Source: a virus. Taken from it: a stretch of DNA of 64,000 bases. Under the pieces are notes generated by a model. That model had not been told where the DNA came from. It did no database searches and worked only from the letters and a program-made list of their open reading frames with translations. The first letter of the stretch is position 1; every line of letters begins with the position of its first letter. The stretch covers positions 37,133 to 101,132 of IMG/VR virus record IMGVR_UViG_3300021600_000393; one strand, 5' to 3'. The position numbers and the translations under genes are program-made. This document shows, piece after piece, positions 13,873 through 26,014 of this stretch.

Positions 13873-16800
13873 TTATATATTCTCAAACGATGCTCCAGTT
13901 GGAGTAATGTAAAAGGTTATGTCAATAAATTCAAGTGACTTAGTTGGTTTGATATAAATCTTACCAGTCAATTGATTTCTATCTAAATCAGCTGCGTCTG
14001 AAGAAACTGTTACACGAAAATCGTATAAACCTCTATCTCTTCTAATCGCGTCTAAAATTGGATTAACCGCGTCTAAGAAATCTTGTCTTACTTTAGCGTC
14101 ATTTTGTTCAAATAATAATCTAACAGAAACTGCTGATATTAATTTACGAGCTTGTAATAACAATCTTCTTACGTTTATTCTATCAAGTGCGGATTCTCTA
14201 ATTTGTAAAGTTTTATTTCCCCAAATAACAGTTCCAACATCAGAAAAAGTTGCAATTGGATTGATTCTACCTTTATATAAAGTATCTCTATCCTCTTGTG
14301 TTAATTTTTTTCTTGCTTTGATAGCGTTTACTAAACCACGTGTATAACCAGCCGCTGCGAACCAAGGGAACGCAATGTTATCGGTTAACGCTAAGTTTCT
14401 TGTAACCTCAGCGGTAGGTGGTAGGTAAATTTGAGTGTTATTAACACTATCTCTAGTTAAAACCCAAGGGTAATAAGTTGCGGTGTAGTTAGAGTCAATT
14501 CCAGTACCTTCTAAATTATCAACCGATTCTTGTGGGTAAATAATATCAGTTGGTTCTCCAACTGTAGGACTAAATAAATTATAATCTGGTGTTGTACAAA
14601 TATATAATGAATCAGCTCTATCAAATTCAATCATTTGAATTGCTCCTTCAACTAAATCAGAATTATTTAAATAATCAATACCAGGAGTCACAAATAAATT
14701 AATATTAACCGCCTCAGGATTAGAAAATGTATTAATACCTAAAAGATAAGCATAATAGTCAGAATTACCATATTCAATTGTGTTGTCACCAACAGTAATT
14801 TGTTTAAACGCTCCCCAACCTGTTGCTGTAGGATATTTAATTGACGGACAAGCTCCTTTTAAATAACCACCTCGACCTAAAACAAATCTATCAGCGTTAG
14901 TTCTATATTCTCTGTAAATATCCCAACCGTCAAAACCTCCTATACAAAGTAAAGTAAATTTACGAGAAAATAATCTATAATATTGGTTTGACTCATTTAC
15001 AGGGTCTGTTGTAAAAGATGATGCTCCAACAAAAAACAAAGGAGTTCCACTTGTAGTGTAATTACTAGATATTGTTAATGCACTTGCGTTAACATCCATA
15101 TGATAACCTCTTGTTTTATACGCCCAATCGTCACCAGTGCTATCTGAACAAACACTAAGAGGTAATTGTTTACCTTTGTATTGTAAGAAATCAGTATCAA
15201 CTCCAACTGAATCAGATATACCTAAATAAGTTCTTCTTACTTTATCACCGTTACTTCTGATTGCGTCATCAGCTCCTGATGCCAAACCAAATGGTGGATT
15301 GTAAACTACTTCCCCAGGAAAATCGTACTTTGTTTTATAAACTGGGAATGGAGGTCTTACACCAGCATATTCTCTATATTGGAAACCTTCAAATCCACAA
15401 GGTAACGCGTCAACCGGAGCGTCATCATTCATTTCAACCATTACTAATTTAGAATTTAATGTGTATTCTCCGTTTTTAGTTCCTATTTTTTTCCCAATAA
15501 ATCCATTATCATTAGGGTTCATATTACAATTTGTAAATTTTTCTAACACAACTGGTGCTTCGTCACTATCAAAGAAATCTCTAATTAATACGTCAAAATT
15601 ACCATTACCAAATGATATATTTGCAATTGAAATTTTAATTTCAGTGTTAGCAGCGTCACCATCAGCAATTGTTGTAAATTTAAATAAATTAGAAACTTTA
15701 TTTCCTCTTAATTCAGAAACTACCCAAGGTGATGTTGGTGATTGATATTGTTCTAAATACCAACCAATACTTGTTGGGTCTGAACCTTGTCTTGCATCTG
15801 GTAAATAAGTTAAGTTAGAACTTACACCTCTAATATATCCTTTTCTATAACCATATGTTAATAATGCCCCAAATTGTTCTTCAACAAATAAAGGTACCGT
15901 AGTCCTCGGTTTTGAAAAATTAGACGCTCCAAAAACTTTTGATACATAATTAACATCAGAAATTTGAAAAGAAGTTTCAAAAAATAAATTATTACCGTCT
16001 TTATCAGTAATATTAACACCAAAAGTTGAAAAAGGATTTTTAGATGCTCCAGAATAAGAACTTGAAAAATCTAAAGTCATTCCAGTTTGTCCGGTAACTT
16101 GATATACTGCCCCAGTATCGGTAGAGTAAGTCGCTAACCCTCTTGACCTCATTGTTGCAATAACTAAATCATCATAATTTAAGTAAGGTGTTCCTGAATA
16201 AATGTATAATGTTCCATTAACAGTTCCACTAAAGTTAGTAATTATAATTCCGTTATTATTATTTCCAGTATTACCTGTCACACAAGGATTACAAGGGTCA
16301 CTAATTTCAACATTTACTGTCCAACTTTCAGTTACCGTAGTATCTTCTGACACTAAAACGTATGTTTTTGTTAAACCGGTAAAATTAACGGTACTTCCGG
16401 TAGAGTATTGTGTTACAGAATTAAGAGTTACCCCTGTTGTACAAGCACTAAATGTAACCGTTAAAGCGGATAAATCATTAATAGTTGTTGCTGAAGGAAG
16501 ACAAAATGAAATAGTATTTGTGTTGTGGTTAATATTACCACTATAAGTACTACCACTAAGAGCGGATGATGCTCCACTAACTGAAAACGAATAAAACGTA
16601 GCACAATTTGATGAAGTGGATGTTTGAGTTAAACCTGAAATATAATTATAAAACGAATAACCGCTATATGTACCATTACCATTATTATCAAATAATGCAT
16701 AATACCAAGGGTCGTTATTTGGGTCATTAAAATTAGCATTTCCTGAATTAACATAATCTAAATTAAAGACATTTGTTGACGCTGTATAACCACTTAATGA

Positions 16801-17457
16801 ATTATAATCGGTTTGAGGTATAACACCAAAATATTTTATAGAATAGTTCTCAGTATTGTTATTAGATATTACACCATAAATTTGATTTTTTAAATCTGAA
16901 CTTAATGTTGATGTTGTACCGTTAAATTGTTGATAAGTAGAATTTAAGTCTTCATTTAATAACCAAGGAAATGTTTCTGTAAAATCTACCGAAGTAACAT
17001 TATCATTATTCCCTGTAAAAGAAACTGAATAAGCGTATTCTTCATATTCAACACAACTTTCAACACAATCAACTGTTGATGAACTAAAACAGTTTTGACC
17101 AACAGTAGTTGTATCAACGTTTGCAACAGTCGTTATACTCCAAGATGGACCGGCGTCATAACCAGATAAACCCAAAACTCTCGTAACAAATAATTGGTTT
17201 GATTGTTGTAAATAAGATTTAGCTATATAAGCAGCTTCATATTTAGGGATTTGTGTGTTTATGAATTTTTCGGCGGATGTTCCACCAAAATACGTTGAAA
17301 ATTCATCAAAATTTGTGATGAAAATAGGTTCAAAAGCGGGACCTTTTAATGTCTCACCAACAATACCTAAAGTTGTAACGCCAACACTTTGCGCAACAAA
17401 ACTCAAATCAACTTCCGAGGTATATACTCCCGGGGACACGAATACTTTATTTGCCAT
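13873..17457 (-). CDS. Contractile tail sheath protein, enlarged by insertions
   Basis: The N-terminus (ANKVFVSPGVYTSEVDLSFV) and C-terminus (LDRINVRRLLLQARKLISAV, then FRVTVSSDAADLDRNQLTG) are diagnostic of contractile-phage sheath proteins. The protein has 1194 residues against 659 for T4 gp18. The extra length lies mainly between residues about 100 and 500 and is rich in Ser, Thr, Asn and Gly, with Ig-like or cadherin-like beta patterns near residues 285-400 (for example TWTVN-type strands and a CNPC). Such surface insertions probably decorate the tail exterior. It is followed by a strong terminator and preceded by a TATTTATT element, fitting high-level late expression. Confidence 0.92.
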   Translation of the reverse strand: MANKVFVSPGVYTSEVDLSFVAQSVGVTTLGIVGETLKGPAFEPIFITNFDEFSTYFGGTSAEKFINTQIPKYEAAYIAKSYLQQSNQLFVTRVLGLSGYDAGPSWSITTVANVDTTTVGQNCFSSSTVDCVESCVEYEEYAYSVSFTGNNDNVTSVDFTETFPWLLNEDLNSTYQQFNGTTSTLSSDLKNQIYGVISNNNTENYSIKYFGVIPQTDYNSLSGYTASTNVFNLDYVNSGNANFNDPNNDPWYYALFDNNGNGTYSGYSFYNYISGLTQTSTSSNCATFYSFSVSGASSALSGSTYSGNINHNTNTISFCLPSATTINDLSALTVTFSACTTGVTLNSVTQYSTGSTVNFTGLTKTYVLVSEDTTVTESWTVNVEISDPCNPCVTGNTGNNNNGIIITNFSGTVNGTLYIYSGTPYLNYDDLVIATMRSRGLATYSTDTGAVYQVTGQTGMTLDFSSSYSGASKNPFSTFGVNITDKDGNNLFFETSFQISDVNYVSKVFGASNFSKPRTTVPLFVEEQFGALLTYGYRKGYIRGVSSNLTYLPDARQGSDPTSIGWYLEQYQSPTSPWVVSELRGNKVSNLFKFTTIADGDAANTEIKISIANISFGNGNFDVLIRDFFDSDEAPVVLEKFTNCNMNPNDNGFIGKKIGTKNGEYTLNSKLVMVEMNDDAPVDALPCGFEGFQYREYAGVRPPFPVYKTKYDFPGEVVYNPPFGLASGADDAIRSNGDKVRRTYLGISDSVGVDTDFLQYKGKQLPLSVCSDSTGDDWAYKTRGYHMDVNASALTISSNYTTSGTPLFFVGASSFTTDPVNESNQYYRLFSRKFTLLCIGGFDGWDIYREYRTNADRFVLGRGGYLKGACPSIKYPTATGWGAFKQITVGDNTIEYGNSDYYAYLLGINTFSNPEAVNINLFVTPGIDYLNNSDLVEGAIQMIEFDRADSLYICTTPDYNLFSPTVGEPTDIIYPQESVDNLEGTGIDSNYTATYYPWVLTRDSVNNTQIYLPPTAEVTRNLALTDNIAFPWFAAAGYTRGLVNAIKARKKLTQEDRDTLYKGRINPIATFSDVGTVIWGNKTLQIRESALDRINVRRLLLQARKLISAVSVRLLFEQNDAKVRQDFLDAVNPILDAIRRDRGLYDFRVTVSSDAADLDRNQLTGKIYIKPTKSLEFIDITFYITPTGASFENI

Positions 17458-20346: not shown

Positions 20347-22104
20347 TTGACATCAATAAAAAATAATACAATTGAACAAAAACCATTATCAATTCTAACT
20401 GATTATAATGGGGCTAATAATTATATTATTAATTTAAAAATAAAAAAAGAAAGTAATAATAAATTTTATTTAACCCCTTCTCAATCCGAATATTTAATTA
20501 ATTATTCAAAAATAATTCCAAAAGTCGCAAAAAAATGGGTGGACATTGACCCTTATTTTGCAAAAAAAATTGCCGACGAAAAACTATTAACTTTTATACC
20601 TGAAAAAATTTGGGTTGAAAAATTACTTGTTGAAAAAGAAAAATCTTATCATATTTGGGGAAAAATTTTATCGGGAGATACAAATTACGATTTTTGGTTA
20701 CCAAAAGGAGCTTTTATTAAAACCCACGTAATTAAAGATGTAAAAATTGATTATAATAAATACTCTAATAGGTTTCCACTTGAACATCAAAAAATAGCGA
20801 TTGAAAAATTGGCAGGGTCGTCAAGGTTTATTCTTGCGGACGACATGGGGTTGGGTAAAACTCTAAGTGCGGTAATAGCCGCGTTGGAAACAAATGAAAA
20901 AAGAATTTTGGTAGTTTGTCCTGCAACGCTTAAAATAAATTGGAGAAGAGAATTTGAATTTTTTACAAAAAAAACAATTTTTATTGCGGAAAGTAAAACA
21001 TTTTCTGACGACGCTGACATTGTGATTGTTAATTATGATATACTTAAAAATTTTCACAATCCAAAAAACATCAAGGAGTCTAAAATATACGATAAGTTTG
21101 ATATAATAATTGCGGACGAATGTCATTATGTGTCTAACCCTCAATCAAAACGAACTAAAATATTTAACCATTTTGCAAAAAAATCAAAGTATCTATGGTT
21201 ATTGTCAGGAACTCCAATGACTAATCGTCCAATTAATTATTTTAATTTACTTTCCCTTATTGATAGTCCAGTTGCTCAAAATTGGGTAGGTTATGCGGTT
21301 CGTTATTGCGAGGGGTACCAATTTAACGCCGGAGGTCGTAAAATATGGAATGTGTCTGGAGCATCTAATTTAGAAGAATTAAGAGAAAGAACATCAAGAC
21401 AATTTTTAAGACGATTGAAGACGGAAGTTTTAGAGTTACCTGAAAAAATAATAACCCCAATTTATTTAAAATTAAAATCAAAATTGTACGAAAACTTAAT
21501 GGGCGAATATTATGATTGGTACGATAATAAAAAAGAAGAGTCAACATCACTTACAATTCAATTTAGTAAATTAATGAAAGTAAGGCAAGTTATCGCCGAA
21601 GAAAAAATAAATAACACGATTGAATTAGCACAAAATATAATTGACCAAGACAAAAAAGTTATTATTTTTACAAATTTTACAGACACGTTAAATAGAATTG
21701 CTGACCATTTTGGTAAACAATCGGTTAGGTTAGATGGTTCAACCCCAAAATTAAAAAGACAAGAATCCGTGGACCAATTTCAAGAAAATGAAAAAGTAAA
21801 AGTCTTTGTTGGTAATATGAGAGCTGCCGGAGTTGGAATAACTTTAACATCGGCAGAAGCGGTTATTATTAACGATTTGTCTTTTGTTCCTGGGGAATTA
21901 TCTCAAGCTGAAGACAGAGCTTATAGGTACGGTCAAAAAAACAACGTTTTAGTTTACTATCCAATATTTCATAATACTATTGAAGGGGGGATATATGATA
22001 TTGTTGTAAATAAAAAACAAATCATTGATACTGTGATGGGTGATAATTTAGATAAAAGCGACGTTGTTGCTGAAATCATGAACAGAATACAAGAAAAAAG
22101 ATAA
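20347..22104 (+). CDS. SNF2-type DNA helicase/translocase (UvsW-like role)
   Basis: A 585-residue superfamily 2 ATPase. Motif I is ILADDMGLGKTLSAV (about residues 160-174), motif Ia LVVCPATLKINWRREF, motif II IIADECHYV (DECH instead of DEAH), motif III LLSGTPMTN, and the second RecA lobe holds IIFTNFTDTLNRIA, AAGVGITLTSAEAVII and QAEDRAYRYGQ (motif VI). This is the SNF2/SMARCAL1-type arrangement, associated with fork remodelling and annealing. In T4 UvsW does such work, so a role in replication restart is likely. The gene has no in-frame ATG near its start; translation seems to begin at TTG 20347. Confidence 0.85.
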   Translation: MTSIKNNTIEQKPLSILTDYNGANNYIINLKIKKESNNKFYLTPSQSEYLINYSKIIPKVAKKWVDIDPYFAKKIADEKLLTFIPEKIWVEKLLVEKEKSYHIWGKILSGDTNYDFWLPKGAFIKTHVIKDVKIDYNKYSNRFPLEHQKIAIEKLAGSSRFILADDMGLGKTLSAVIAALETNEKRILVVCPATLKINWRREFEFFTKKTIFIAESKTFSDDADIVIVNYDILKNFHNPKNIKESKIYDKFDIIIADECHYVSNPQSKRTKIFNHFAKKSKYLWLLSGTPMTNRPINYFNLLSLIDSPVAQNWVGYAVRYCEGYQFNAGGRKIWNVSGASNLEELRERTSRQFLRRLKTEVLELPEKIITPIYLKLKSKLYENLMGEYYDWYDNKKEESTSLTIQFSKLMKVRQVIAEEKINNTIELAQNIIDQDKKVIIFTNFTDTLNRIADHFGKQSVRLDGSTPKLKRQESVDQFQENEKVKVFVGNMRAAGVGITLTSAEAVIINDLSFVPGELSQAEDRAYRYGQKNNVLVYYPIFHNTIEGGIYDIVVNKKQIIDTVMGDNLDKSDVVAEIMNRIQEKR

Positions 22105-22150: not shown

Positions 22151-23701
22151 ATGGAAAAATTAAAATTAAAATCACAAAAGATTGAAAAACAAATCTTATT
22201 AGCCGAAAAACAAGACGTTAAAGAAACCCTTATTACCGAAATGAAAAAAATCGGTATTGAAAAATTACCCTATTCGTACACTTCTTTAAAAAAATTTATT
22301 GACTCTGAAACAATGTCAATACATTATAATCGTCATTATAAAAATTATGTTGAAAAATTAAACAAACTAATTTCTAAAAAAGATTATCCAGATATGGAAC
22401 TCGAAGAAATTGTTAAATCTATTAGTCGATTTAATAAAGGGGTTAGAAATAATGCAGGTGGGGCGTTTAATCACGCTTTGTTTTGGAAAATGTTGTCTCC
22501 AACAACTCAAGAACCTAATGGTGAAGTATTAGAAAGAATTAAAAAAGATTTTGGAACTTATAAAAGTTTTGTTAATATGTTTCAAAACGCAGCAAAAGAA
22601 AGATTTGGTTCTGGATGGGTTTGGTTGGTTTTAACTAAAAATAACGTATTAAAAATACTTTCGACTGAAAACCAAGACAATCCGTTAATGAATGTTGTGA
22701 AAGATGGCGGATACCCAATATTAGGGTTAGATTTATGGGAACACGCGTATTATTTAAAATATCGAAATAAAAGAGACGAATACGTTACTAATTTTTGGAA
22801 ATGTGTAAATTGGGAATTTGTTAATTCACTTTATAATTCAAGATTAAAGAAAAAAATTAATGAAACAGAAAATTTACGTAAACTTATTTCTGAAACAAAA
22901 TCAAATACTTGTAGTTGGCCAGAGGTTGAAGCGATTAGGTTTATTTTTAATAACAATCCAAATATTAAATATATGTACAGAACGGCTATAGATATAATTT
23001 TATCTGAAGTTTTTCCTGAACATTATTATAAAGAAAATGAGTATGAACCAAACAGTTTATATGGAATTTATGATTTAGAACAACCTGGAAGGTCAGGAAT
23101 AAATAAATTAAACACTAATTATAACACTTTTTGTACCTTACTTAAAGATATAAATCTTGTTATTACCCGTGAAAAAGGAAGTGACCCAATAAATAAAATA
23201 AATATTGTTGGTGTTAAACCATTTGAACAAATATTACAAACTAAAAAATTTATTGAATATTTAAACGAATATAAATTTCGAATCTTTTCAAGAAATTCAG
23301 AAACATTTAATAATTTAATGGTAATTTTAAAAGAAAAAGACTCTATTGGTGAAAAAAGAGAATCGTCAGTTGTCAAAAAACTTAAAGAAATTTATGGCGA
23401 AGACAACGTAATAAAAGTAGGTGAATTAGGTAGTAAAAGAGACACTAAAGATGGTGTGGATTGTGAAATAATTATAAATGGGGAGGTATTAACAGCTCAA
23501 ATAAAACCATTTTTAAAAGCTGAAGATATCGGGGAAAATTTTAAAATGCACAATACTGGAAATGTAAAACCTTACAAAACAAATTTTATTATTTTTTCAA
23601 CAATGAGTAATAAAATAATGGTATTTAAAAATGATGATATCACAATTAAAAATGGTAATTATATAATACCAAAGAAAAATTTAATTCATAATATTTATTA
23701 G
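22151..23701 (+). CDS. Mn/Fe superoxide dismutase fused to a nuclease-like domain
   Basis: Residues about 35-230 are a complete Fe/Mn superoxide dismutase: metal ligands H58 (SIHYNRHY), H108 (FNHALFW), D194 and H198 (LGLDLWEHAYYLKY), and Tyr66. Q175 in STENQDNPL is where Mn-type enzymes carry the second-shell Gln. All four metal ligands are present, so activity is plausible. Residues about 250-400 form a linker domain I do not recognise. Residues about 400-516 resemble a PD-(D/E)xK nuclease: E404, D437 and Q450-x-K452 (VDCEI then LTAQIKP). The N-terminus (MEKLKLKSQKIEKQILLAE) adds about 35 residues before the dismutase and fits the recurring N-terminal motif. Expression with the neck genes suggests late timing. 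Superoxide removal during infection and virion packaging are both inference. Confidence 0.85.
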   Translation: MEKLKLKSQKIEKQILLAEKQDVKETLITEMKKIGIEKLPYSYTSLKKFIDSETMSIHYNRHYKNYVEKLNKLISKKDYPDMELEEIVKSISRFNKGVRNNAGGAFNHALFWKMLSPTTQEPNGEVLERIKKDFGTYKSFVNMFQNAAKERFGSGWVWLVLTKNNVLKILSTENQDNPLMNVVKDGGYPILGLDLWEHAYYLKYRNKRDEYVTNFWKCVNWEFVNSLYNSRLKKKINETENLRKLISETKSNTCSWPEVEAIRFIFNNNPNIKYMYRTAIDIILSEVFPEHYYKENEYEPNSLYGIYDLEQPGRSGINKLNTNYNTFCTLLKDINLVITREKGSDPINKINIVGVKPFEQILQTKKFIEYLNEYKFRIFSRNSETFNNLMVILKEKDSIGEKRESSVVKKLKEIYGEDNVIKVGELGSKRDTKDGVDCEIIINGEVLTAQIKPFLKAEDIGENFKMHNTGNVKPYKTNFIIFSTMSNKIMVFKNDDITIKNGNYIIPKKNLIHNIY

Positions 23702-23702
23702 T

Positions 23703-24842
23703 ATGTTAAATATTAAATTGTCAAAAAAACAATTAAAAGTTTTAGTTGAAGATATAAATAACAATATCGATTACACATATCGACTTTGCAAACAATCAGT
23801 TGACAAAAAAATTAACTCCTCCCCTTGGTGCGAATTAAAAAATATAAGTTATCGAGCGTCAGATGTTTTAAACAAACAATTACAGGAAACTTTAAAAACC
23901 TTACTTGATTTTTTTCCTAGACATCATACAGGTATTTTACCTAACATTATTAAAATTTCACAACAAGACCAAAATAGAACTATTTCGTTTTTAAAAACAA
24001 TTGCCGATTTTATAAACGACCCATTGTTTAGTGATGACCAAAGTAAAAAAACATTACAAAATTTTAAAAATCTTGATGAAATACCAAGTGATTTAGAAGA
24101 CCTTTTAAAAGTTGTAAGAGCTAAAGAATATTCAAATTATGAAAATTCTTTTGTTGGGAACGAATTTACACTCAAACGAGGAATGTTAAAACTAGATTAC
24201 AAATGTGGCGATTTAACTGAAACTAAAAATTTTTTTGAAATAATTAAAAAAATTAATCAAGATTCTAATTTAGCATCTGAATATTGTACAAAAATTATTG
24301 AATGTGTAAAATCTTCAATAAATAACATAAACATTCCGCAAAAAGGAGATTTAATTACTAATTCACCATTATACGTTATTGAAAATGGGGTTAATAAAAA
24401 GATTTTTGATGCCAATTCTTTTTTTGAAGTTAAAAAAATGGATGTCGAAATTGATAGTTACCTTTCAGAATTTTTTTCTATTTTTAAAAAAACAGATTTA
24501 AAAAGTTTAAAACCGGAGTATATTCAAACATATAATAAAGTAATGTCAGTATTATATATGTGGATTAAATCTAATGGAAATGAATTTTTAAATAATGTAA
24601 GAAAATCACTTAATGGAATAATTTATGATAAAAACATAATTGTTCCAACAGAAAATATTGAATTTTATTGGTCAAATAAAGGACAACGAGGTTGTGATGA
24701 ATTAAGACTTTCTATACGATTTAGAATTAAACCTCAAATCACAAAAATTAATGGTTACAAATACATTAACGGGTCAAATATTCTTGAAAATTTTGTTTTT
24801 GATGTAAAACAAAAAGACACTGAGCAAATAATTTGTAAATAA
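23703..24842 (+). CDS. Unknown protein with recurring N-terminal motif
   Basis: A 379-residue protein without a family I recognise. It starts one base after the superoxide dismutase stop, so the two are probably co-translated. The N-terminus (MLNIKLSKKQLKVLVED) closely matches the recurring segment seen on the dismutase, HAD-like and metallopeptidase-like proteins. The centre is helical and Lys/Asn-rich; a C-terminal stretch (FYWSNKGQRGCDELRLSIRF) looks beta-rich. Possibly a head or internal virion protein, by context only. Confidence 0.6.
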   Translation: MLNIKLSKKQLKVLVEDINNNIDYTYRLCKQSVDKKINSSPWCELKNISYRASDVLNKQLQETLKTLLDFFPRHHTGILPNIIKISQQDQNRTISFLKTIADFINDPLFSDDQSKKTLQNFKNLDEIPSDLEDLLKVVRAKEYSNYENSFVGNEFTLKRGMLKLDYKCGDLTETKNFFEIIKKINQDSNLASEYCTKIIECVKSSINNINIPQKGDLITNSPLYVIENGVNKKIFDANSFFEVKKMDVEIDSYLSEFFSIFKKTDLKSLKPEYIQTYNKVMSVLYMWIKSNGNEFLNNVRKSLNGIIYDKNIIVPTENIEFYWSNKGQRGCDELRLSIRFRIKPQITKINGYKYINGSNILENFVFDVKQKDTEQIICK

Positions 24843-24886: not shown

Positions 24887-26014
24887 ATGTCAATTATCGC
24901 AGAACCGCAAAGAACGGAACTTTATACAAGATTGAGGCATTTACTTGGTGCTCCTCTTAGAAGTGTTGAATTAGAAGATGAGCAATTAGATTCTTTTTTA
25001 CAATTATCGATTGATGATTATTCACAATATGTTCAAGACTGGTTAATTGACTCACAATGGGCATCTTTGGATAATCTTAATTTATCAACACAATCATTAT
25101 CTAAAGCTTTTTTAACTAAAAGTTTAAATTATGAACAACGTTATTCCTACGCATATTCAAAAATAGTTGGGTTACAAGCCGGTGGAGATTCGGTCTTAAA
25201 AAAAGACTATATTGTTTTAGAAGCAAATCAACAAATTTATGAAATCCCAGCTGGGAGAGAAATTAATGAATTATTATGGTTTTCTCCATCGGAATTAAAC
25301 AACGCAATGTTTGACCCTTGGTCTTTTGGGTCATTGGGAGCTGGTGGGGGATTAGGTGGTGGAGGTGGATTGGCTCAACCGGCCGGTATGGGTGGTGGGT
25401 ATTTTATGATGCCGGCATTTGATATGTTGTTAAGAATGCAAGAGATTAACATTCAACGAAGAATTATTGCCGGAGACTTAACATATAGAATAACCGCATT
25501 ACCTGATGGTAAAAAAGCAATTCATTTAATGAACACTCCAGGTGGTAAATTTGATTTTGGTAACGGAACTTTAACTAAAGGTAAAGTTTGGTATTGGTAT
25601 TATGATGTTGGTCCAGACGATAGAGACAAATGTTTAAAAATGAATCCAGATATTATTAAATTACCATCAGACGTACCAATGGATAAAATTTACTGGGAAG
25701 AACTTAATAGTCCATCCCAAATTTGGATTCGTCGTTGGTTTTTTGCATACGCAAAAGAAGCTCTTGGAAGAATTCGTGGTAAATTTAGTGGTAATTTAAA
25801 AACGCCGGATAGTGAACTAACTATGGATTACGCATCGTTATTTACGGAAGCTAAAGATGAAAAACTTAAATTATTAGAAGAGTTAATTGGGGTTGAAGGT
25901 AGATTAACAAGACTAAGGCCAGAAAAAGTTATGGAAAGAGAGGCATTAATTGCAAAATCTTTAAACGACCAAATGAAATTTAGAGCGTTTCCAAGACAAA
26001 TTTATGTAATTTAA
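24887..26014 (+). CDS. Neck protein (gp13-like)
   Basis: A 375-residue protein with an N-terminal segment LYTRLRHLLGAPLRSVELED at about residues 12-31 followed by DEQLDSFLQLSIDDYSQYVQ, the pattern of T4 gp13-like head-completion proteins, where a helical domain precedes a beta core. The C-terminal half has WFFAYAKEALGRIRGKFSG and a helical tail (LLEELIGVEGRLTRLRPEKV) typical of gp13-like connectors. Residues about 149-172 form a Gly-rich loop (GAGGGLGGGGG), an unusual flexible insertion. Head completion, joining the portal to the tail, is the likely role. Confidence 0.65.
   Translation: MSIIAEPQRTELYTRLRHLLGAPLRSVELEDEQLDSFLQLSIDDYSQYVQDWLIDSQWASLDNLNLSTQSLSKAFLTKSLNYEQRYSYAYSKIVGLQAGGDSVLKKDYIVLEANQQIYEIPAGREINELLWFSPSELNNAMFDPWSFGSLGAGGGLGGGGGLAQPAGMGGGYFMMPAFDMLLRMQEINIQRRIIAGDLTYRITALPDGKKAIHLMNTPGGKFDFGNGTLTKGKVWYWYYDVGPDDRDKCLKMNPDIIKLPSDVPMDKIYWEELNSPSQIWIRRWFFAYAKEALGRIRGKFSGNLKTPDSELTMDYASLFTEAKDEKLKLLEELIGVEGRLTRLRPEKVMEREALIAKSLNDQMKFRAFPRQIYVI

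Follow-up and report, generated by a model that had tools for sequence, protein, structure and literature searches.

The gene under study belongs to an uncultured virus represented by a record of 101,132 bp, of which a stretch of 64,000 nucleotides, referred to as the window, was analysed. The window contains genes for a contractile-tail sheath, an SNF2-type helicase, a family B DNA polymerase and neck proteins. The tail sheath protein (13873-17457, minus strand) comprises 1194 aa, with recognised sheath domains only at residues 896-1185. Between the helicase and a neck gene, a single reading frame joins a superoxide dismutase (SOD) to a nuclease-like part, and 1 nt separates its stop codon from the next ORF, which starts at 23703 (Table 1). 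In the two of 62 related loci where no neck gene follows, the contigs stop 2 and 16 nt past the fusion gene.

Table 1. Features of the SOD-nuclease locus (positions refer to the window)
Feature	Position	Strand	Remarks
SNF2/UvsW-type helicase, conserved upstream neighbour	20347..22104	+	loci of 62/62 distinct proteins
SOD-nuclease fusion gene, proposed head-cargo precursor	22151..23701	+	516 aa, ATG start
N-terminal propeptide, residues 1-30, predicted helical, capsid-targeting-sequence-like	22151..22240	+	ends I-T-E30; putative cleavage
Proposed cleavage site 1, E30-M31	22238..22243	+	[LIM]xE directly before SOD, 45/45 non-redundant proteins
Mn-type SOD domain, ~residues 35-232	22253..22846	+	ligands H58, H108, D194, H198; Y66, Q175
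Proposed cleavage site 2, I-N-E238-T239	22862..22867	+	E238 31/31; residue 236 L/I/M 31/31
Proposed cleavage site 3, I-S-E248-T249	22892..22897	+	E248 30/31
Nuclease-like module; PD-(D/E)xK-like core ~residues 398-515	22895..23698	+	model mb745f72e7fd4, pLDDT 94.4
E404, invariant acidic residue, helix before sheet	23360..23362	+	alignment and model
D431 and D437 (D-x3-G-x-D), invariant	23441..23461	+	alignment
Q450-x-K452, invariant QxK	23498..23506	+	alignment and model
Next gene (379 aa), module M	23703..24842	+	homologues occur behind SOD, in one chain with it, in other phages
Neck / head-tail adaptor gene, conserved downstream neighbour	24887..26014	+	phrog_211, E 2e-9; 60/62

A search with the whole protein returned at least 598 relatives, some of which may be SODs only; the best 80 of these were kept and further fetches were added. 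All 88 loci collected by similarity to the fusion or to its C-terminal part, some of them sharing contigs, carry the full-length fusion (alignments over 498-517 positions, 52.6-100% identity) and represent 62 distinct proteins, although a sample found with the fusion as query cannot tell how often the fusion is absent. Hence, the 516-aa reading frame is confirmed and the fusion is not an assembly accident. Its C-terminal region, whose absence from close relatives had been set beforehand as a possible refutation, is kept in all 88 loci. Among 50,697 phage records, the C-terminal part found no match, and the matches of a three-module relative end by residue 235, within the SOD part. Additionally, no bacterial or archaeal genome contig matched in a search with one single pattern, which is a weak test. 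A preliminary description of this DNA knew of no nuclease fusion among phage SODs. As a reading it is unreported as far as searched, but the BFVD collection of predicted viral structures holds A0A6J5L953, a protein of 501 aa labelled only 'superoxide dismutase', the other part of which matches our C-terminal model with a TM score of 0.91. Since UniProt lists the same entry as 'superoxide dismutase [uncultured Caudovirales phage]', sequences of the family are already public.

The SOD part is readily recognised. Pfam assigns Sod_Fe_N to residues 37-116 (E 9e-22) and Sod_Fe_C to residues 122-226 (E 1e-38), both well above cut-off, and structure comparison of the model supports the SOD fold with Z ~20 over residues 35-234. 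The four metal ligands H58, H108, D194 and H198, the gateway tyrosine Y66 and the Mn-type Q175, all named in the preliminary description, are invariant in 31 aligned relatives, and so are W156, W196 and E197, which were missing from its list. Judged by ligands and modelled fold, the SOD part is a complete Mn-type Fe/Mn superoxide dismutase, as had been proposed. Its best sequence matches among solved structures are bacterial Mn and Mn/Fe SODs. While it shares all ligands, the tyrosine, the Mn-type glutamine and the fold with bacterial SodA, the window protein differs from the latter by an N-terminal propeptide and C-terminal modules.

For the C-terminal part, no family above cut-off was obtained from Pfam, PHROGs or a sequence profile search of the PDB. 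A weak stray match to phrog_5018 (unknown function) reached E 0.0021 for a paralogue and 0.05-0.26 for three fusions, and a Pfam scan of 55 members touched seven families, each in one member of the 55 (best MC4, E 3.3e-4; Mrr_cat_2, E 0.0018). The C-terminal part was folded alone from a 55-row alignment because the SOD swamped fold searches with the whole model. The resulting model, built on 55 diverse sequences, has a pLDDT of 94.4 and a pTM of 0.87. Foldseek places the homing endonuclease I-Ssp6803I first (E 2.5e-3, probability 1.00), followed by archaeal Hjc and NhoI, with none at E <=0.001. VIA-align ranks Hjc first (2wcw; Z 8.7, rmsd 3.3 over 103 aligned positions), ahead of NhoI, Eco15I, HhaI, DpnI and PvuII, with matches covering model residues ~148-268, which correspond to window residues 396-516. 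As models without a clear match also reach Z 7-8 in this program, Z 8.7 alone gives modest support. Most of the 50 VIA-align matches shown are proteins which we take to be members of the PD-(D/E)xK superfamily, and among the BFVD matches are predicted structures of viral proteins that bear the names PD(D/E)XK or Holliday junction resolvase. The assignment to PD-(D/E)xK is persuasive because the match list keeps to one superfamily and the motif falls where it is expected. One BFVD match, A0A8D9CCA0 from an uncultured marine phage, is 1113 aa long and contains the nuclease-module fold inside (TM 0.81); it is perhaps a longer precursor.

Invariant across the 55 relatives are G400, E404, G427, D431, G435, D437, Q450 and K452. 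D431, which the preliminary description did not mention, belongs to the same invariant set as the four residues E404, D437, Q450 and K452 that it had arranged as a PD-(D/E)xK-like site. In I-Ssp6803I, too, Q-x-K replaces (D/E)-x-K. Going by fold resemblance and the invariant set of catalytic type, the C-terminal domain is PD-(D/E)xK-like, in agreement with that description. A predicted structure in which D437, Q450 and K452 fail to cluster had been set beforehand as another possible refutation. At the level of topology, the model is compatible with their clustering: E404 sits in a long helix before the sheet, D437 just ahead of a strand, and Q450 and K452 in the next strand. Compared to known PD-(D/E)xK nucleases (Hjc, I-Ssp6803I, the N-domain of NhoI/Eco15I), the module agrees in the fold over residues 398-515 and in the E/D/QxK set, while differing by a helical N-terminal part of ~145 residues, the D-x3-G-x-D motif and its lack of a Pfam or PHROG family.

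The stretches joining these domains carry a pattern of their own. In the first model, residues 22-41 and 233-251 have pLDDT values below 50, and most of the surrounding positions, ahead of E30 as well as from residue 229 to 250, vary among the 31 aligned relatives. In contrast to these surroundings, E30 is present in 31/31 with L or I at residue 28 in 31/31, and L, I or M precedes E30, E238 and E248 by two residues with one exception, at E248. The preliminary description contains none of these three sites. According to the accessible text of PMC9026906, the T4 prohead protease gp21 cleaves after L/I-X-E, the propeptides removed from T4 internal proteins serve as capsid-targeting sequences, and a further cut is made at the C-terminus of Alt. 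For the survey of the joints, redundancy was reduced at 90%, which left 45 proteins; 29 are of window type and 16 have other architectures. Within the 30 aa after the SOD, at least one [LIM]xE occurs in 45/45 (1000 shuffles: mean 25.1, maximum 35) and at least two occur in 43/45 (1000 shuffles: mean 6.6, maximum 16), bearing in mind that the motif is short and common and that, the sequences being related, shuffles overstate independence. L, I or M stands two residues ahead of 58% of E, compared to 13-29% of D, K, Q, N and S. Proteins in which the SOD comes last stop before the linker, and none of eight such distinct proteins has [LIM]xE after the SOD; hence, the linker goes with a following module.

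Profile searches of the related record G001 with the propeptide and the linker gave no convincing second copy. Among the G001 ORFs in L101-L119 are many short proteins with related N-termini, e.g. MKKVIRLTESDLxxLVKRIINE-Q or MKxLITES. In appearance, these N-termini form a peptide family of capsid-targeting type. At residues 9-40 of 288 G001 ORFs, [IL]xEQ occupies 19/9216 positions as against 26/75489, an enrichment that is suggestive and at the same time inflated by the relatedness of the N-termini; among the controls, [IL]xK is up 1.6-fold, [ILV]xKQ is up 2.3-fold and [IL]xD shows no rise.

The same joints are the places where the relatives of the window protein differ in their modules. A scan with the junction peptide gave at least 119 stretches and from these 80 loci with 61 ORFs uncut by contig ends, and further architectures were found with profiles of the nuclease module. 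The 61 uncut ORFs comprise 43 SOD-nuclease proteins (340 to 555 aa), two that carry an additional HEWVH module in front, 15 HEWVH-SOD proteins without a nuclease of window type and one SOD alone. This N-terminal module, found in proteins of ~710 aa with the motif HEWVH or HEWIH, has H78, E79, H82 and E104 invariant in an alignment of 24; it is labelled zincin-like here because of the motif, with no Pfam support. In the group of 15, five proteins carry a homologue of module M at the C-terminus, as does one cut ORF in addition, three end in module Y, and seven end after the SOD. Module Y has conserved E, YD and CK and is nuclease-like by eye only. Modules M and Y have no sequence similarity to the window nuclease, yet they occupy the same slot in other phages. 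Taken together, SOD-nuclease, SOD-nuclease-nuclease, zincin-SOD-nuclease, zincin-SOD-repeats-nuclease, zincin-SOD-M, zincin-SOD-Y and zincin-SOD have been found at this slot. The second nuclease stands in tandem in L140 (873 aa), with KKLTE-STRKNRLLLE-G as joint, and the extra repeats occur in L185-L187. In L188 the propeptide joins the nuclease directly and the SOD is absent. An HNH-endonuclease-like gene, recognised by eye, lies at L188:3269-3928 just upstream of this propeptide-nuclease gene, as if linked to SOD loss.

Out of 60 distinct ORFs with a nuclease module, 28 have the helicase in front of them, namely 26 fusions and both genes of L188; 26 of the 28 precede the neck gene, and in the other two cases the contig stops too soon. 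The remaining 32 are single-module proteins that have neither helicase nor neck gene as neighbour in the fetched stretch. A protein of 496 aa with the nuclease module, encoded at L234:2173-3663 on the minus strand, starts with MKILITEKQK and has a different N-terminal half. The gene behind the fusion gene takes part in this exchange as well: module M of the window matches the C-termini of L242, L243, L250, L251, L292 and L304 with 36-44% identity (E down to 9e-88), six loci that amount to five distinct proteins as L242 and L251 are identical. The link between the two genes, suggested earlier from the 1-nt gap as joint expression, is supported by these fusions of homologues of the second gene behind the SOD in six loci.

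One way to account for a SOD and a nuclease in one chain is an uncut bifunctional enzyme in the infected cell, in which both act together, e.g. in protecting DNA or its ends while it is replicated or packaged, a view in line with the preliminary description. Conservation of the fusion across 62 distinct proteins, the intact state of both active sites in the 31 aligned ones and the location of the gene beside a helicase and a neck gene would all suit such an enzyme. We nevertheless regard it as unlikely, given joints that keep (L/I)xE motifs amid variable sequence, modules that are gained, lost and swapped at these joints, and a nuclease that also stands alone while the SOD also occurs without it. 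The idea that the nuclease serves as a DNA-binding part for the SOD, raised in the preliminary description, is not supported in that form, as conserved cleavage-type sites and module exchange rather suggest that a precursor is divided into individual proteins.

A protease suited to such cutting is encoded by relatives of the virus. The gp21-type protease (Peptidase_S77) was found in 10 of 22 related records (3/10 and 7/12, the latter including G019, which showed a free-standing nuclease only) and in 5/5 records of 270 kb or more; gp23 was found in 4/10. In the window's 101-kb record and in G004, whose fusion is 98% identical, gp21 and gp23 were not found, as may be the case in fragments. In G001, G002 and G006, LINE-A precedes the region of gp23 that matches as shell protein; the gp22-like proteins contain SL[N/T/F]E-Q. 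T4 gp23 loses its N-terminal piece at a comparable place. The gp23 gene of G001 (L108:1692-3545) encodes 617 aa with a long stretch between two parts matched by the Gp23 family. In G001, the genes for the gp21 protease and the gp22-like scaffold have a free-standing copy of the nuclease module between them (L107:16104-17060). This paralogue was considered as a conserved head gene and ruled out as such, G002 and G006 being without a copy there.

From the domains, their conservation, the linker motifs, the module exchange and the gp21 and gp23 genes of large relatives, we infer a scheme of targeting, cleavage, injection, activities and roles in which the protein is probably a modular precursor that is packed into the head, cut there by a gp21-type prohead protease into separate enzymes and injected with the DNA. 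The helical propeptide (residues 1-30) would target the precursor to the prohead core, and the protease would cut after E30, E238 and E248. The products released inside the capsid would be a Mn-type SOD (31-238) and a PD-(D/E)xK nuclease-like protein (249-516), both of which would enter the host with the DNA. The SOD might remove superoxide encountered on entry, in the virion or in storage, and the nuclease might act early on non-phage DNA or on DNA ends. The stretch from helicase to neck gene would be a cargo slot whose modules, exchanged at the linkers, are a zincin-like protease, a SOD, one or two nucleases, module M and module Y. Such packaging would explain the conserved joints and their absence when nothing follows, module exchange at one slot beside the neck gene, and the finding that a separate gene of the window is a fused module elsewhere.

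Several observations count against packaging in the head, among them the negative searches for gp21 and gp23 in the window's record and in G004, both of which may be fragments. A T4-type late promoter (TATAAATA) was found within 150 nt upstream of the fusion gene in 1 of 62 loci; the third site is missing in L069; both linkers come out as helix in the first model, albeit with low confidence; and in L185-L187 one post-SOD site is seen in the 30-61 aa covered. At site 1, the residue in P1' is Met, which gp21 may not accept. Moreover, if active, a nuclease inside the head might harm the phage DNA packed there. With regard to a modified-base explanation for a packaged nuclease, genes of the thymidylate synthase family were found in 2/10 records and QueC in 0/10. 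The gene of this family in G002 (C1:5332-7607) occupies two separate frames with ~1 kb between them, as though an intron or insert broke it up.

Comparison with known cargo systems shows both kinship and distance. Like the internal head proteins of T4 (IPI, IPII, IPIII, Alt), the window protein has an N-terminal helical peptide ending in (L/I)xE, T4-type gp21 and gp23 occur in large relatives of the window, and a role as injected cargo is proposed. Unlike those proteins, the putative precursors of window type string together several enzymes including a SOD, with cleavage-type sites between them. Polyvalent proteins, as far as the accessible text of Iyer et al. 2017 (PMC5512222) describes them, likewise combine several unrelated enzyme domains in one protein of a mobile element and are thought to enter with the DNA; the window protein shares this makeup with its SOD and nuclease-like domain, and its relatives add zincin-like and other modules. 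Release of polyvalent proteins is ascribed in the same parts of that source to embedded peptidases, whereas the window-type proteins have sites of prohead-protease type.

A second alternative is processing by another protease, either the zincin-like module or a host enzyme, of a protein that acts in the cell and is not head cargo. Zincin-like peptidases have been proposed to process phage polyvalent proteins (PMC5512222, accessible parts), and the HEWVH/HEWIH module is present in relatives (24 aligned; 17/61 uncut ORFs). The window form and 44/61 uncut ORFs, in contrast, have no zincin-like module while window-type proteins keep the sites, and the joint motif is that of gp21, seen again in the gp23 and the gp22-like proteins that relatives encode, which leaves this alternative with a somewhat smaller chance than the uncut enzyme. 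A selfish domain of homing-endonuclease type hitch-hiking on the SOD gene is highly improbable: although I-Ssp6803I leads the Foldseek list and free-standing copies exist away from the locus, one at the gp21/gp22-like site in G001 where G002 and G006 have none, the fused copy stands behind the same helicase in 62/62 without any such presence/absence pattern, and the dissimilar modules M and Y fill the same slot elsewhere.

The proposal of a packaged precursor cut by prohead protease can also be compared with the free SOD-like proteins of cultured jumbo phages. PA5oct-like Pseudomonas phages and Vibrio phage 2.275.O resemble the window virus in encoding a SOD-like protein, and PA5oct and 2.275.O both have gp21; their SODs differ from that of the window by sharing ~27% identity with it and having no nuclease module. 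Each has one (L/I)xE: PA5oct gp223 (SOD-like, L098:4010-4558) begins with MNDSIKKYISIAE-A, near where its SOD part sets in, and the 2.275.O protein (L099:2968-3537) ends KMLDE-SVNIRHLINFISK, much like the fusion linker. These motifs fit the packaging of SOD in part; single motifs of this kind can arise by chance. The record of gp223 bears the note ESI-MS/MS. This note stands at 5 of 15 CDS in the 8.6 kb around gp223 and at 8 CDS in the first 50 kb of PA5oct, several of the latter named structural; since GTP cyclohydrolase, QueD, FtsH and a ligase are among the marked genes around gp223, the note may not mean presence in the virion.

In the literature, searched mostly without subscription papers, no description of a SOD-nuclease fusion was found, and no earlier report of an injected phage SOD or of a multi-enzyme precursor with joints of prohead-protease type. 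The main texts on MIJ3 (PMC6892783; the record names sodB) and PA5oct (PMC6950013) do not contain superoxide, and that of PMC5512222 gave no match for superoxide or dismutase. Neither SOD cargo nor such a precursor was found in the accessible parts of PMC7824862 and PMC10052503, and a word search of the available text of PMC5694885 gave no matches. Aquatic Bacteroidota jumbo phages have gp13, UvsW and a prohead protease according to the accessible parts of PMC12619734, which hold no match for dismutase. Earlier work has established capsid-targeting sequences, the cleavage by gp21 and the injection of polyvalent proteins as kinds of system; a SOD in such a cargo set and prohead-protease-type joints in a multi-enzyme precursor are new, as far as searched.

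More broadly, the locus may represent a phage counterpart of viral polyproteins, in which interchangeable enzymes are produced from one slot, their linkers are cut by the prohead protease in the maturing head and the resulting set, SOD included, is injected; we see the chances of this broader view as evenly balanced. The phages concerned would be a widespread group with T4-type head genes, and the enzymes would be the SOD, PD-(D/E)xK-like nucleases of two kinds, the zincin-like protease and module M. If true, the head would mature and the enzymes for injection would be set free in one and the same event, and a sequence rule would be at hand for recognising what large phages carry beside their DNA, namely to follow conserved (L/I)xE joints. 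The capsid-targeting sequences of T4 and polyvalent injected proteins would be linked in one locus with visible module turnover, and superoxide defence at entry, or in the virion, would matter enough to be kept across many phages.
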